This document shows positions 35,155 to 39,839 of a stretch of 64,000 nt of DNA, in pieces (position 1 is the first letter of the stretch; every line of letters begins with the position of its first letter). Under the pieces are notes generated by a model. That model had not been told where the DNA came from, searched no databases, and saw only the letters and a program-made list of their open reading frames with translations. The DNA comes from Rhodobacteraceae bacterium (ex Bugula neritina AB1) (GTDB lineage: Bacteria; Pseudomonadota; Alphaproteobacteria; Rhodobacterales; Rhodobacteraceae). Both the position numbers and the translations under genes were made by a program. Where the stretch lies: the NCBI GenBank assembly GCA_001730095.1, contig MDLF01000074.1:62001-126000 (forward strand), written 5' to 3'.

Positions 35155-36288
35155 TCAGAAGCGCTGCCCGACATAGACATAGAGCTGTGTCTTCTGTTCA
35201 TTGTTGCGGCTGATATCAATGGAGAAATCCAGCGGAAACTTCCTGGAGACCCGGTAACGCACGCCTGCACCCGCCGCACTGTGGCGACCGCCCTGCGTCA
35301 AATCGCCGAACTCCGGCCCGGTCCAGCCGCTACCGGCAAAAACCACACCGCCCCAGCGCTTGGAAAATCGCCTGCGGTATTCGGCTTGAATGGAGGCAGA
35401 GCGCGGCCCGGTGTATTGGGTGCTGTTGAACCCGCGCATATTGTCGGTGGCGCCAATCGAACACTGGTCGAAGAATGGCGTGTTACCGGAGGCGGCGCAC
35501 AGGGTTCCGCGCAGGGCCAGAACGCCCTGGCGGCCAATGGGACGGTAGCCGTCGAGAATGGTATAGGTCTTGTCATAGCGCCGACTGATCCCGCCCAGCG
35601 TATGGGATCGTGTCGCATAGGCCGTGAGACGGGTGCCTATGGTCGGGTAATCGCTGTTGTCGCGCCGGTCCCAGTCGAGGCTGAGCCCGAAGGAGCCGAT
35701 TGCCAGGTCGGCATCCGGCTGCAGCGAGGGCGGCAGCACAGCGCCGTTTGTCGAAATATCCGTCTCCAGGTAGCGCAGCACAACACCTGCGGACAGATCA
35801 GGGGTCACGCCATAGGCCACGTTTATTCGCGCCAGCGCCCCATCCTGGCTGACGGGCAGAATGCCCGCCCCGGTGTAAAGATCATAAACCGCATCCGCAC
35901 GCGCGGCGAGCGCCTTGACCTGCCAGCGGTTGCCGGGAAGGGCAAAGTTGACCATGACTGCCGCCGCCTGGCTGCCGTTGTCGGACCTGAGACCGCCCAG
36001 CCCGATCACTGATGTATTGGCATCCGGGCCAGTCTTGAACAGATAGCCCGCGCCCAGTCCCAGGCCAGAGCCGATCATCGGGCTGGAAAACGGCACCGGT
36101 GCCACCACGACCGATCCGTTGCGAAAACCATAGCTTTCGGTTTTCTGCACCGTCTCGATGTGGCCAAGGTGCCGTTCCGTCTGTTCTGGGCCCGCTGTTT
36201 TACCGACCGTGGCCAGACTTGCCAGCATTGTCGCCAGGGCAGCACAGCCCGCAGCGCGCCGCACCGAACTACGTCTTTGGCGTGGCAC
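35155..36288 (-). CDS. Outer-membrane surface-antigen (Omp85/D15-like) protein
   Basis: A 377-residue protein with an N-terminal signal (basic start, hydrophobic AAGCAALATMLASLATV). A beta-barrel follows, with alternating aromatic/hydrophobic strands and the bacterial surface antigen motifs GLSLDWDRRDNSDYPTIGTR and NMRGFNSTQY. It ends in a terminal Phe (YVGQRF), as outer-membrane proteins do. It lacks POTRA domains, so it is a barrel-only member. The GTG start at 36288 lies 20 bases inside the end of the upstream MscS gene, implying co-translation. Confidence 0.8.
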   Translation of the reverse strand: MPRQRRSSVRRAAGCAALATMLASLATVGKTAGPEQTERHLGHIETVQKTESYGFRNGSVVVAPVPFSSPMIGSGLGLGAGYLFKTGPDANTSVIGLGGLRSDNGSQAAAVMVNFALPGNRWQVKALAARADAVYDLYTGAGILPVSQDGALARINVAYGVTPDLSAGVVLRYLETDISTNGAVLPPSLQPDADLAIGSFGLSLDWDRRDNSDYPTIGTRLTAYATRSHTLGGISRRYDKTYTILDGYRPIGRQGVLALRGTLCAASGNTPFFDQCSIGATDNMRGFNSTQYTGPRSASIQAEYRRRFSKRWGGVVFAGSGWTGPEFGDLTQGGRHSAAGAGVRYRVSRKFPLDFSIDISRNNEQKTQLYVYVGQRF

Positions 36289-38545
36289 CGTCTTTGCCTT
36301 CTTCAGACGTCTGCTGCTGTGCGGCAGCGCCTGCCGCGGCAGCCACAGCGGCCTTTTCGCCCCTGTTCATCTGGTCTGCATCCTCCAGTCCGGGAATAGC
36401 CACCCGGACCTCGCGGCGGGCAAAATCGATGCAGTTTTCAGCAAAGGCTGCCTTTACACGGTTGTAGATCTCCTTGCGGATGGTGAACTGGGTGCCCGGC
36501 TTGGCCATGAACTTGCCTCGCATGATCATGCCAACGTCATCAAAGTCAAAAACACCCTGGCTTTTGAACGGCTGCAGGAAATCATCCTTGTACAATTCAT
36601 CCTCCAGCATCGAGGCGCCGATTTTCTTGAAGATCTTCTTGACCTTGTTCGGGTCGGTATCAAATGGCACCGTGAAACGCAGTTTCATGATTACCCAGTC
36701 ACGGCTGTAATTGGTCAGCTTGGGGATCTCGCCATAAGGAATGGTGTTGATCGGCCCGCGGTGGTGGCGCAGCTGCATGGAGCGGATCGAGATCTTCTCA
36801 ACCGCGCCACGGGTGCCTTCGACCTCGACATATTCGCCGACGCGGAAGGCATCATCGACCAGGAAGAAAATGCCGGAAACCACATCCGACACCAGCTTTT
36901 GTGCGCCAAAGCCGATGGCAAGCCCCAGAATCCCGGCCCCCGCCAGAAGCGGTGTAATGTCGATGCCCAGCGCGCCGACGGCCAGCAGGCCGAAAATCAC
37001 CGCAATGGCGATCTGGGCGGTTACCAGCAACAGCGGCAGCACGGTTGCCAGCCGCGACCCGCCAGCGCCGCCACCTTCGCTGCCAGCCTCGGCCTCCTCG
37101 CCAGAGGTCTGCTCCCTGGCCAGCCGCCGGTTTATCCAGAGCGACACGCCTTCGTAGATCACATAGCCGACCGCGATGGTCATCAGGCAGCCGATCAGGT
37201 TTCCTGCAATGCCTTCAGCGCCGGAGGCAATGGCCATAAGGTCGACGTCCCAGGCATTTGAGATGATCACCAGCACGATGCCTGCCACCAGAACCCGGCC
37301 GATCCGGATGTAGCTGCGCTTGGTCGAGACATAGGCTGCCTCGGCCAGGTCTCCTTCGCCGGACATCGGCGGCACCAGATGCTTGACCAGCCCGCGGATG
37401 GCCGTATCCAGCGCCGGGGCGGCCAGAAGCCAGAACATGGTAATGTAATGCGCCCCGTAGATCAGCTGTGCCACCTTGCCCAGCCCGACCATTGTTCCAA
37501 CCACCACCCATGTCAGCGCGGCCACAGCCATCGCGAAATAGGGATAGTAATGGGCCGCGAGATTGTCATATCGCGTGCGGTCAGGGTCGGTCCCGCGCAT
37601 CATGTCGGACAGGCCTTCGCGCGCGGTCCAGGCAATCCAGATGATGTAGACATAGACCAGGCTGTCCAGCCAATAGGCCAGCCGGATGGATTCCGGCGCA
37701 ACCCCATTGGCGGCGTTGAAACGGACGGAGAAAATTGCCAGCCCAGCCAGAAAGACCAGACCAATGGTGTGCAAATAGAGAAAGTCGGCCCATCGGTCGC
37801 TGGCATTCACCAGCCGCCTGTCGGGCCGTTCCGGCGCCATGATAAAGCGGGACACCGCAGCTCCCACCCGTGGCAGCCAGATCAGATAGGTGACCATCGG
37901 CGCCGCAAACAGCAGCATTTGTGCGTCCAGCAGCGTCCGGCCTACAGCACGGATCACCACGTAAAACACCACCAGGCCGATCATCTCGCGCAGGAAACGG
38001 CGGCCCAGAAAGCTGAGCGCGCCCGCCAGCGTGTCGGCAGACCCGCTGATCATGTCCAGATTGCGCCAGCGGGCGATCAGTTTGCGCACGGCAATTTCCG
38101 CCGCCAGACCAATCGCAAGGGTCAGGGCAATAAGTCCCAGCATCGTCAGCACGCCGCCCGGGCCGCCGTGTTTGTGAACAAAATTTCCGATCGCGCGGGC
38201 CTGACCTTCCGGCAGCACCGGCAGCTTGCGCACCGCATCGGTCACCGGCAGCGTGAAGGCGGTCCACAACTGCACAACACGCCCGGTCAGAGTGGGCGGT
38301 GGTGCAGCTTCCTCCTGCCGGGCCGCAACTGCGTCCAGCCGTTCCAGCAGCAGGGCTCTGACCTGATCGTCAGACATCCGGGCAACCATCTCATGAATGG
38401 CGTCCTCGGTCAGGGGATCGGGCAGGGCGGGGGCAGAGGCGGGGGCTGTTTGCGCCATCACCGGCGGTGTTCCGGCAATTCCCAGCGCAAGAACTGTGAA
38501 AAACACGGTCAAAACGCGGGCATAGTGCTGAAAAACAAACTTCAA
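36269..38545 (-). CDS. Large MscS-family mechanosensitive channel
   Basis: A 758-residue inner-membrane channel with a signal peptide (residues 1-30, ending VMAQT). A periplasmic N-terminal region comes next, then several membrane helices (about 130-520), and the MscS pore and beta domain from about residue 520 (LLAGAGILGLAIGFGAQKLV, then VGEYVEVEGTRGAVEKI). The start is TTG at 38545, with AGGAGG five bases before it. It is longer than MscS and closer in layout to MscK/YbiO-type channels. The C-terminus is Ala/Glu-rich. It overlaps the outer-membrane barrel gene by 20 bp. Confidence 0.9.
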   Translation of the reverse strand: MKFVFQHYARVLTVFFTVLALGIAGTPPVMAQTAPASAPALPDPLTEDAIHEMVARMSDDQVRALLLERLDAVAARQEEAAPPPTLTGRVVQLWTAFTLPVTDAVRKLPVLPEGQARAIGNFVHKHGGPGGVLTMLGLIALTLAIGLAAEIAVRKLIARWRNLDMISGSADTLAGALSFLGRRFLREMIGLVVFYVVIRAVGRTLLDAQMLLFAAPMVTYLIWLPRVGAAVSRFIMAPERPDRRLVNASDRWADFLYLHTIGLVFLAGLAIFSVRFNAANGVAPESIRLAYWLDSLVYVYIIWIAWTAREGLSDMMRGTDPDRTRYDNLAAHYYPYFAMAVAALTWVVVGTMVGLGKVAQLIYGAHYITMFWLLAAPALDTAIRGLVKHLVPPMSGEGDLAEAAYVSTKRSYIRIGRVLVAGIVLVIISNAWDVDLMAIASGAEGIAGNLIGCLMTIAVGYVIYEGVSLWINRRLAREQTSGEEAEAGSEGGGAGGSRLATVLPLLLVTAQIAIAVIFGLLAVGALGIDITPLLAGAGILGLAIGFGAQKLVSDVVSGIFFLVDDAFRVGEYVEVEGTRGAVEKISIRSMQLRHHRGPINTIPYGEIPKLTNYSRDWVIMKLRFTVPFDTDPNKVKKIFKKIGASMLEDELYKDDFLQPFKSQGVFDFDDVGMIMRGKFMAKPGTQFTIRKEIYNRVKAAFAENCIDFARREVRVAIPGLEDADQMNRGEKAAVAAAAGAAAQQQTSEEGKDGATPKT

Positions 38546-38680
38546 CGAAACCTCCTGTGTCAGGAAACCGGACTGGGTACGGGTATCGATCGGCCCAGTT
38601 GAACCGATGAGTTGTATTCAGGTCAAAGAAAAAAGAGAGTTTCTGACAGTGCGTTACTGGGTCGCCAGCAGCCGTGTAGC

Positions 38681-38817
38681 CAAAAAAAAGGCCGAGCACT
38701 AAGCTCGGCCGAAGTCCAACAGGGAGGTATGAAGGGGGGCGAAGCCGCCGCCTTCATGAGATTTCATTTAGGGCCGCAAGCCCGTTCCTTCAAGGGGAGA
38801 TACGCCATTTCGGCGTC
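38681..38817 (-). ncRNA. Candidate AbcR-like small RNA downstream of a LsrB/VtlR-like gene
   Basis: Non-coding DNA that folds, read leftward, into four hairpins. These are ACGCC/GGCGT (38816-38802), GGGC/GCCC (38783-38771), GAAGG-x-GGCG/CGCC-x-CCTTC (38755-38731), and the terminator GGCCGAGC/GCTCGGCC (38710-38690) followed by eight T. Two unpaired pyrimidine stretches, CTCCCC (38799-38794) and CCTCCC (38727-38722), are complementary to ribosome-binding sites, as in AbcR/alpha-r15 sRNAs. A LysR-type palindrome lies just upstream at 38824. There is no long reading frame; a 25-codon frame starting at the palindrome has no good ribosome site. It could instead be the 3' end of the LysR mRNA. Confidence 0.5.
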
Positions 38818-38823
38818 AATGCT

Positions 38824-38844
38824 GCTATGCAGTTTTTGCATAGC
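38824..38844. promoter_or_regulatory. LysR-type palindrome upstream of the candidate sRNA
   Basis: GCTATGCA and TGCATAGC form perfect 8-bp arms around 5 bases, containing the T-N11-A pattern of LysR binding sites. It lies 7 bp before the first hairpin of the candidate RNA and 90 bp after the LysR gene's stop. Confidence 0.55.
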
Positions 38845-38933
38845 TGGAGCGCAGCCAGACGGATATTTCGTCCGTATTTCCTGAACCCGCGGCAGAGCGG
38901 CTGGGTTTTAAGCACAGCCCTGATACAGCGGGA

Positions 38934-39839
38934 TCAGAGCTTGCCCAGCTCCTTCATGTGTTTGCGGTGCGCCATGATCTCGCTTTGCACGAAATCACGG
39001 AAGGCGCCGACGCGCTGGGAATGCCGCAGCTCCTCCGGGTAGGCTAGGTAGACCGGAACCTCATTCTGATACTCATCCGGCAGCACCTCAACCAGTTCCG
39101 GGAATTCTTCTGTCACATAGTCCGGCAGAATACCCACGCCCAGATCATGCAGAACCCCCTGCATAACACCAAAGTAATTGTTGACCGTCAGCAGCGACCC
39201 GGGATTCTGCGCCATCAGATTTTTACCAAGCACGGCAGCAGATCCCACCTGCGCAGACCGCTGGTTCTGGCAGATCAGCCGGTGGTTGGCGATATCGGCG
39301 AAGGTTTCCAGGTTGCCCTGTGCCTCCAGATAGGCCGGCGTCGCATAAAGCCCCATCCGCACCGTCATCAGCCGCTTGCGCACCAGATCTGCCTGGCTGG
39401 GTTCCTTCATGCGGATTGCCACATCGGCTTCGCGCATCGGCAGGTCCAGCACCCGTTCTTCCAGCATCAGGTCGATCTTGAGGTTCGGGTATTGCTCATA
39501 CAGTTTGGTCAGACGCGGTGCCAGCCACAGGGTCCCGAACCCAACCGTGGTGGTCACCCGCAGCTCGCCGAACACTTCTTCCTCGCTGTCGCGGATGCGG
39601 GCAGAGGCCGCCTCAAGCCGGGCTGACATGGATTGTGTGGCGTCGAACAGCAGCTCACCCTGCTCTGTGAGAATCAGTCCGCGCGCATGGCGGTGGAAAA
39701 GCGTCGCATTCAGGCTTTCCTCCAGTGCCCGAATCTGGCGGCTGACCGCTGATTGCGACAGATTCAGCTTGTCGCCCGCATGGGTCAAGCTGCCCGCATC
39801 GGCCACCGCGTGAAATATTCTAAGCTTATCCCAATCCAT
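38934..39839 (-). CDS. LysR regulator, LsrB/VtlR-like
   Basis: A 301-residue LysR protein. The N-terminus MDWDKLRIFHAVADAGSLTH and the following LNLSQSAVSRQIRALEE and LFHRHARGLILTEQGELLFD closely follow the LsrB/VtlR family of Alphaproteobacteria as I remember it. Members control small RNAs of the AbcR type, small DUF1127 proteins, stress and surface traits. The effector domain (residues 90-295) is complete. It is divergent from ior. The rhizobial neighbour trxB is absent. The candidate sRNA with a LysR-type palindrome lies immediately downstream. Confidence 0.85.
   Translation of the reverse strand: MDWDKLRIFHAVADAGSLTHAGDKLNLSQSAVSRQIRALEESLNATLFHRHARGLILTEQGELLFDATQSMSARLEAASARIRDSEEEVFGELRVTTTVGFGTLWLAPRLTKLYEQYPNLKIDLMLEERVLDLPMREADVAIRMKEPSQADLVRKRLMTVRMGLYATPAYLEAQGNLETFADIANHRLICQNQRSAQVGSAAVLGKNLMAQNPGSLLTVNNYFGVMQGVLHDLGVGILPDYVTEEFPELVEVLPDEYQNEVPVYLAYPEELRHSQRVGAFRDFVQSEIMAHRKHMKELGKL

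Follow-up and report, generated by a model that had tools for sequence, protein, structure and literature searches.

Does the 388-bp gap (38546-38933) between a LysR-type regulator gene (38934-39839, minus strand) and an MscS-like channel gene (36269-38545, minus strand) encode a small RNA, and might that RNA be controlled by the regulator beside it? The question arises from a first-pass annotation of the 64,000-nucleotide stretch of Rhodobacteraceae DNA analysed here (the window), which proposed for the gap a possible sRNA of about 137 nt, starting near 38817, akin to the AbcR RNAs and controlled by an LsrB/VtlR protein. The two parts of the question are taken in turn: the RNA itself, then the regulator, its predicted operator and the other genes that may share it.

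A SorY-type sRNA gene in the gap

The gap contains a genuine SorY-type sRNA gene with its own promoter, at 38682-38759 on the minus strand (Table 1). In the whole window the sole Rfam match at gathering threshold is to SorX (RF02784), at 38684-38762 on the minus strand, with 53 bits against a gathering score of 46.6. At a relaxed threshold SorY (RF02651) scores 56.8 bits at 38682-38754, which is under its gathering score of 111; that score is reached in only one of 149 family genomes, so the SorY threshold fits little beyond its source. Read on the minus strand, the order of elements is palindrome (38844-38824), CTTGAA (38794-38789), N16, CCTAAAT (38772-38766), start (about 38759) and end of the U-run (38682).

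Table 1. Features of the sRNA locus and its regulator gene, in window coordinates.
Feature	Position	Strand	Basis
SorY-type sRNA, about 78 nt	38682-38759	-	Rfam SorX/SorY matches; start by analogy with the published SorY start
-35 element CTTGAA	38789-38794	-	sequence; kept among orthologues
-10 element CCTAAAT, 16 nt past the -35, RpoH-like form	38766-38772	-	sequence; orthologues; RpoH1 form in PMC8844928
5' hairpin of the sRNA	38729-38757	-	fold; orthologue hairpins; arm-swap test
Exposed ACCUCCCUGUUGGACUU, predicted pairing region (anti-Shine-Dalgarno type)	38712-38728	-	first 16 letters invariant in 24 chosen orthologues
Intrinsic terminator: GC hairpin and eight U	38682-38710	-	sequence and fold
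Predicted LsrB operator (GCTATGC-N7-GCATAGC inverted repeat), at about -85 to -65 relative to the sRNA 5' end	38824-38844		exact in window; family loci
Match to the published VtlR-binding motif CAATGCAGCCATGCA in 13 of 15 letters; overlaps the palindrome	38817-38831	+	motif in PMC12595884
LysR-type regulator gene, LsrB/VtlR orthologue, 301 aa	38934-39839	-	Pfam HTH_1 and LysR_substrate; PDB 9HH1; reciprocal best hit

The 5' end was placed by a rule, the seventh base after the -10 element, which was applied to the orthologues as well. In genome G051 this rule gives record position 1,632,642, and the main SorY 5' end of Rhodobacter sphaeroides is printed as 1,632,642 (PMC6238624). From this agreement, together with a SorY score of 115 bits, we infer that G051 is R. 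sphaeroides. Because the rule that gives 38759 in the window also gives the published 5' end of SorY in G051, the window RNA is taken to be about 78 nt long. The -35 and -10 elements are one letter off the quoted RpoH1 promoter form, CTTGAA-N16-CCTATAT (PMC8844928); the promoter is RpoH-like and not plainly of sigma70 type.

These boundaries alter the details of the claimed sRNA. A 137-nt transcript starting near 38817 is rejected, since that start lies upstream of the conserved -35 and -10 elements, which fall inside the longer form. With a start at about 38759 the RNA has two hairpins, not the three first described, and only one of the two reported CTCCC stretches (ACCUCCCUG) belongs to it, the second (38794-38799) running into the border of the -35 element. 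The strong terminator with eight U was read correctly.

Structure and conservation of the RNA

The 78-nt RNA folds into a 5' hairpin, a mostly unpaired core and the terminator (minimum free energy, MFE, -35.2 kcal/mol). Relative to dinucleotide shuffles its folding has a z of -4.55, and that of the 136-nt form of the first reading a z of -3.71; as the longer form also beats its shuffles, folding alone cannot decide the length. Among 24 chosen orthologues ACCTCCCTGTTGGACT is invariant and the 5' hairpin varies, while in a fuller set a few orthologues depart from the invariant core (e.g. L133, L142, L150, L153).

Hairpin and arms were analysed in 135 of 137 orthologue rows, L161 (a duplicate of L024) and L030 (doubtful start) having been dropped. 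A 5' hairpin of at least 5 bp that closes no more than 8 nt from the core is present in 130 of the 135, several pair types occur at each of its first eight pairs, and on average a fraction of 0.71 of the 17 core positions is unpaired in the MFE structures. As a measure of covariation, arms were exchanged among orthologues: the 5' and 3' arms of the same RNA pair at a mean of -12.08 kcal/mol, versus -7.31 after the exchange (standard deviation of the mean 0.21; the lowest value in 200 shuffles was -7.99). Given the relatedness of the sequences, the test counts sequences rather than events, but it supports a maintained 5' hairpin.

A scan with the SorY model found a match in 138 of the 149 family genomes, and a search with the window LysR protein in 144 of them (E 1e-80). 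The two usually lie together. A LysR orthologue of 65-80% identity is present in 28 of the best 30 SorY loci, and at least 122 of the 144 genomes have a SorY match within 1.2 kb downstream of LysR on the same strand (median gap 118 nt among the matches listed). The window LysR is 72% identical to the SorY-adjacent LysR of R. sphaeroides (G051), and in both the sRNA is directly downstream. When the DNA downstream of all 144 genes was read (up to 700 bp; 1.3 and 1.6 kb in two), the CCTCCCTG core and, after it, a T-run were present in 136. The eight misses comprise a contig end (G102), a one-letter variant (G064), one genome in which SorY lies 174 kb away (G034), and five in which no core with T-run follows the LysR gene (G136, G029, G014, G059, G054). 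As controls, the same test gave no match elsewhere in 250 kb of 40 loci from the class, one match in 11 LysR paralogue loci of the window's genome, and four elsewhere in about 0.7 Mb of 80 named loci (both locus sets are described below).

The regulator is a predicted LsrB/VtlR orthologue

The best PDB match of the window LysR protein is 9HH1 (E 1e-70; next 1.6e-27), the cryo-EM entry of Agrobacterium tumefaciens LsrB (PMC11975290). The nearest other LysR protein in the window's own genome is 30% identical. In the reverse direction L203, an LsrB-like protein of another family whose near relatives are from Azospirillum, finds the window LysR as its best match in the window genome (1.2e-81; next 5.7e-36) and the SorY-adjacent LysR as its best match in G051 (4.7e-84; next 2.9e-39).

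A scan of the class with the window LysR matched 106 of 190 genomes at E 1e-50, 103 of them outside the family. Forty of these 103 loci were taken for analysis, and a second set consists of 80 named loci chosen by similarity to L203 (Azospirillum, Thalassospira, Kiloniella, Reyranella and others), with three loci common to both. In these other families a trxB-like gene, recognised by motif, lies upstream in 35 of the 40 and 66 of the 80 loci; of the 66, five were examined more closely, and each proved to be a thioredoxin-disulfide reductase. The order trxB-lsrB is a known Rhizobiales arrangement (PMC7486931, PMC11975290). Directly upstream of the window LysR there is no trxB, the gene there being an indolepyruvate ferredoxin oxidoreductase; the trxB neighbourhood is context and not a defining feature of an LsrB/VtlR protein. 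The PDB match, the reciprocal best hit and the trxB neighbours in other families together point to the window LysR being the predicted orthologue of LsrB/VtlR. In a 2025 paper whose species comparison includes R. sphaeroides, LsrB is described as unique to Rhizobiales (PMC11975290), and VtlR has been called conserved in Alphaproteobacteria (PMC7486931). If the predicted orthology is correct, the present data speak against LsrB being unique to Rhizobiales.

At the positions of the four A. tumefaciens LsrB cysteines the window protein, as judged by eye, has other residues; the redox cysteines C144 and C273 are replaced by V and A, and the only Cys is at residue 190. A disulfide switch of the kind proposed for A. 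tumefaciens LsrB thus seems unlikely, and because no LsrB cysteine is kept the signal may also differ. A count of cysteines in 28 LysR proteins of the family (the window protein and L006-L035) gave 21 with only one, near residue 190, six with none and one with two.

A palindrome at fixed distance from the promoter

The LysR-type palindrome described in the gap is indeed there, and perfect. Nowhere else in the genome does the pattern GCYATGC-N7-GCATAGC occur without mismatch. When up to 3 mismatches are allowed, it occurs 19 times in the 64 kb, against 19.8 expected by chance; since such forms are this common, the meaning of the palindrome rests on its conservation. The count was made in 134 of the 144 family sequences, those in which the core was found with at least 150 nt upstream. 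Upstream of SorY, 107 of these 134 loci carry the pattern with 2 or fewer mismatches, versus 2 of 670 dinucleotide shuffles, a comparison that is partly circular because the pattern was derived from the same loci. The spacing was obtained separately, the promoter having been found without reference to the box: from the start of the palindrome to the -35 element there are 49 or 50 bp in 126 of the 134 loci. Two genomes, G034 and G105, have SorY apart from lysR, and in both the box accompanies SorY.

The published 15-nt VtlR motif is weak across the orthologues, with at most 3 mismatches in 25 of 122, and in the window its 3-mismatch matches number 4 against 5.4 expected by chance. The part GCAT-N3-NG-N3-T lies at about -71 to -59 in the window, and the corresponding part of the LsrB box in PabcR1 at -61 to -49 (PMC8844928), so that in the window it is about one helical turn further upstream.

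A predicted second output: DUF1127 genes with CcsR-type repeats

Apart from its one perfect place, the palindrome occurs in the window's own genome at three places with one mismatch, two of which precede DUF1127 genes. The third (L164, about 1501-1521; G000:C1:13625-13645) lies between ccmI-like and sarcosine-oxidase-like frames, as judged by eye. A longer box pattern has four perfect places in this genome, one at SorY, one at a DUF1127 gene and two that precede neither. A search with the protein of that DUF1127 gene matched at least 20 of 120 family genomes at E 1e-12, a threshold at which further matches are missed since the protein is short. In the closest 20 DUF1127 loci the palindrome is present with at most 2 mismatches in 19 and with 3 in one, versus 5 of 400 shuffles with at most 2; at one of the 19 (L334) the best palindrome is oddly placed and a perfect longer pattern lies nearer the gene. 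Of the 20 loci, 18 carry the longer pattern without mismatch, and CTCCTCCC repeats of CcsR type lie downstream in all 20. Six other genomes (five chosen from the 20 with these DUF1127 loci, and G051) have 16 perfect places of the longer pattern, four before SorY, five before DUF1127 genes and seven before neither; in G038 and G003 this perfect-place search misses SorY.

The DUF1127 locus of G051 holds CcsR1 (106 bits), and CcsR1-4 are transcribed together with ccaF1 (PMC8307010). In Brucella, the VtlR regulon consists of AbcR2 and three DUF1127 genes (PMC12595884), and in A. tumefaciens the abcR1 promoter is bound by VtlR, as is that of atu1667, which is orthologous to two of the Brucella DUF1127 genes (PMC7486931). 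A predicted regulon of like composition is seen here, with the box before an sRNA (SorY) and before DUF1127 genes (the 19 loci above). This agreement of two different outputs with the VtlR regulon is the strongest argument for the predicted control by LsrB.

Related RNAs in other families

The LsrB orthologue is followed by the CCTCCCTG core and a T-run in 29 of the 40 class loci and in 55 of the 80 named loci; at several of the misses among the latter, less than 500 bp of DNA was left. The typical form in the class is ACGTCTCCCAGACGTGAAGCCTCCCTGTTCAACT and a terminator. An upstream palindrome with at most 3 mismatches accompanies 24 of the 29 and 46 of the 55 (shuffles 4 of 145 and 10 of 275). 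In the 40 class loci there is no Rfam match at gathering threshold; in the 12 of them scanned at a relaxed threshold, SorX, SorY and suhB come closest. The LsrB-linked RNA is absent at some class loci, e.g. L182, L183, L187 and L188. As an observation in its own right, a candidate RNA in which 16 nt separate two CTCCC stretches, with a terminator, recurs downstream of the LsrB orthologue among L168-L287, in many alphaproteobacterial families.

It seems to us more probable than not that LsrB heads an old circuit found throughout the class, composed of an adjacent CUCCC-type sRNA and DUF1127 genes. SorY would be its form in Rhodobacteraceae, ACGUCUCCCAGACGUGAAGCCUCCCUGUU with a terminator (and no Rfam gathering match) that in other families, and AbcR1/2 that in Rhizobiaceae, although Rhizobiaceae with AbcR are not identifiably among the loci of the class samples; in R. 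sphaeroides one LysR protein would govern both SorY and ccaF1-CcsR1-4, stress systems that have been studied separately.

Comparison with known sRNAs and candidate targets

The window sRNA resembles SorY of R. sphaeroides in its place downstream of the same LysR gene, the form of its promoter, the box, the core and the terminator, and differs from it in the sequence and length of the 5' hairpin. In R. sphaeroides SorY is reported to act on takP mRNA (PMC6238624) and is called Hfq-dependent. With SorX the window sRNA shares the CCUCCCUGUUGGAC core and a terminator, whereas SorX is cut from an mRNA 3' end (PMC9438474). The SorX counterpart of the window's genome is found elsewhere (L001 1501-1573; G000:C101:36295-36367, minus strand; 93.8 bits), where it follows a gene for an OmpR-type response regulator and has an Exo_endo_phos gene as neighbour; SorX identity of the window sRNA is rejected on this ground. 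The window sRNA is not at the 3' end of an OmpR-type regulator gene, its neighbour being the LysR gene.

Two of the five matches of the SorX model in this genome (L004 and L005) seem to be just terminators, the CCTCCCTG core being absent from the stretch that was read. L003 1480-1569 (G000:C74:225960-226018, plus strand) is a third candidate sRNA of the CCTCCCTG type, with CCTCCCTGTCAGACTGG and a terminator, situated between an ATPase-type gene and another reading frame; it scores 40.8 bits with SorX and 38.6 bits with suhB, both just under the gathering score.

AbcR1 and AbcR2 (alpha-r15) are also encoded downstream of lsrB/vtlR, and AbcR1 is activated by LsrB via an upstream box (PMC8844928, PMC7486931). 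Like them, the window RNA is predicted to pair in anti-Shine-Dalgarno fashion; unlike them, it has 78 nt rather than 114-121 nt, and combines an RpoH-like promoter with an LsrB-type box. The AbcR loop CUCCUCCC and the stretch UUCCCCUC, as given in PMC8844928, are both missing from the 78-nt RNA, and on these motifs the AbcR membership first suggested is rejected. None of eight Rfam matches at E up to 10 is named AbcR or ar15, and Rfam may hold no such model. The ccaF1-CcsR1-4 operon of R. sphaeroides (CcsR1, RF02791) has in common with the window locus the predicted box before its DUF1127 gene, and differs in its sRNAs (CCUCCUCCC hairpin repeats) and in its location. The SmelC671 family of Rhizobiales, in which a single-stranded CUCCCUGU lies between variable hairpins of which the 3' one is the terminator (PMC3927594), is alike by description, with a single-stranded stretch between hairpins and a 3' terminator.

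A target pattern, ACAGGGAGG-N2-10-ATG, occurs at seven places in the window's genome. Two of these are antisense to sRNA loci, three look weak (frames of 5, 26 and 118 aa) and two are plausible, the genes being those of an SBP_bac_1 ABC substrate-binding protein and of a DUF2147 protein. In G051, CACAGGGAGG-N2-10-ATG occurs at two places, before genes that by eye appear alanine dehydrogenase-like and ABC-type substrate-binding-protein-like. Below the sRNA, the window contains on the minus strand the MscS-like channel gene (36269-38545) and, at 35155-36288, one whose similarity to Omp85/BamA-type proteins is weak.

Proposed mechanism and alternatives

On the computed conservation and structure of the RNA, the LsrB orthology, the box and promoter, and the box before DUF1127 genes, the explanation that we regard as clearly the most probable is a SorY-type sRNA with its own promoter, whose adjacent LsrB/VtlR orthologue binds the palindrome and activates the RpoH-like promoter, and also acts on a DUF1127 gene. 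The regulator would bind the palindrome, whose centre is some 75 bp before the RNA start, and when bound would activate the promoter, for which the predicted sigma factor is of RpoH type. The exposed CCUCCCUGUU would then most likely pair, with the predicted help of Hfq, to ribosome-binding sites of transporter or metabolic mRNAs, as reported for SorY, SorX and AbcR1, and pairing would lower expression of these targets as part of an oxidative-stress response. The same regulator probably controls the DUF1127 gene with CcsR-type repeats downstream. The first-pass proposal of an LsrB/VtlR-controlled sRNA beside its regulator thus has strong comparative support from orthology, synteny, box spacing and the DUF1127 boxes, and needs correction in the length, the 5' end and the assignment to AbcR.

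The promoter sequence itself might suggest that the sRNA is real and driven by an RpoH-type sigma factor alone, the palindrome serving another LysR-type protein or being only a modest modulator. In print SorY has been placed under RpoHI/RpoHII, not under a LysR protein (PMC8307010). This reading appears unlikely to us, as it leaves unexplained why the box is kept at fixed spacing, remains with SorY where lysR is elsewhere, is common to DUF1127 promoters as in the VtlR regulon, and recurs beside LsrB orthologues in other families.

The position of the sRNA downstream of lysR on the same strand would also suit an RNA cut from the 3' end of lysR mRNA, and SorX provides a precedent for release from a host mRNA (PMC9438474). 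However, conserved -35 and -10 elements immediately precede the 5' end, R. sphaeroides SorY is transcribed from a promoter of its own with its 5' end at a mapped start site (PMC6238624), and the 174 kb between SorY and lysR in G034 are hard to reconcile with a shared transcript; processing is very improbable. That the stretch is nothing but the lysR terminator, with a chance hairpin and palindrome, would account for the strong terminator downstream of lysR, yet sixteen invariant letters in the unpaired core of 24 orthologues, the covariation of the arms and the presence of a known sRNA at the corresponding R. sphaeroides position make this hardly credible.

Implications

SorY-type RNAs are already known; what appears to be new is the link to LsrB and a predicted regulon in common with the DUF1127-CcsR operon. 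No published link between SorY and LsrB was apparent in the accessible text of the literature on SorY/LysR and on LsrB/Rhodobacterales or under the letters CUCCCUGUU, the original SorX/SorY papers lying outside this scope. By this evidence R. sphaeroides and the class at large probably have an LsrB orthologue, beside a known stress sRNA and with the same predicted operator before the ccaF1-CcsR operon. If this is true, two photooxidative-stress RNA systems, SorY and ccaF1-CcsR, would gain a common regulator, and AbcR in rhizobia and SorY in rhodobacters would be outputs of one old circuit.
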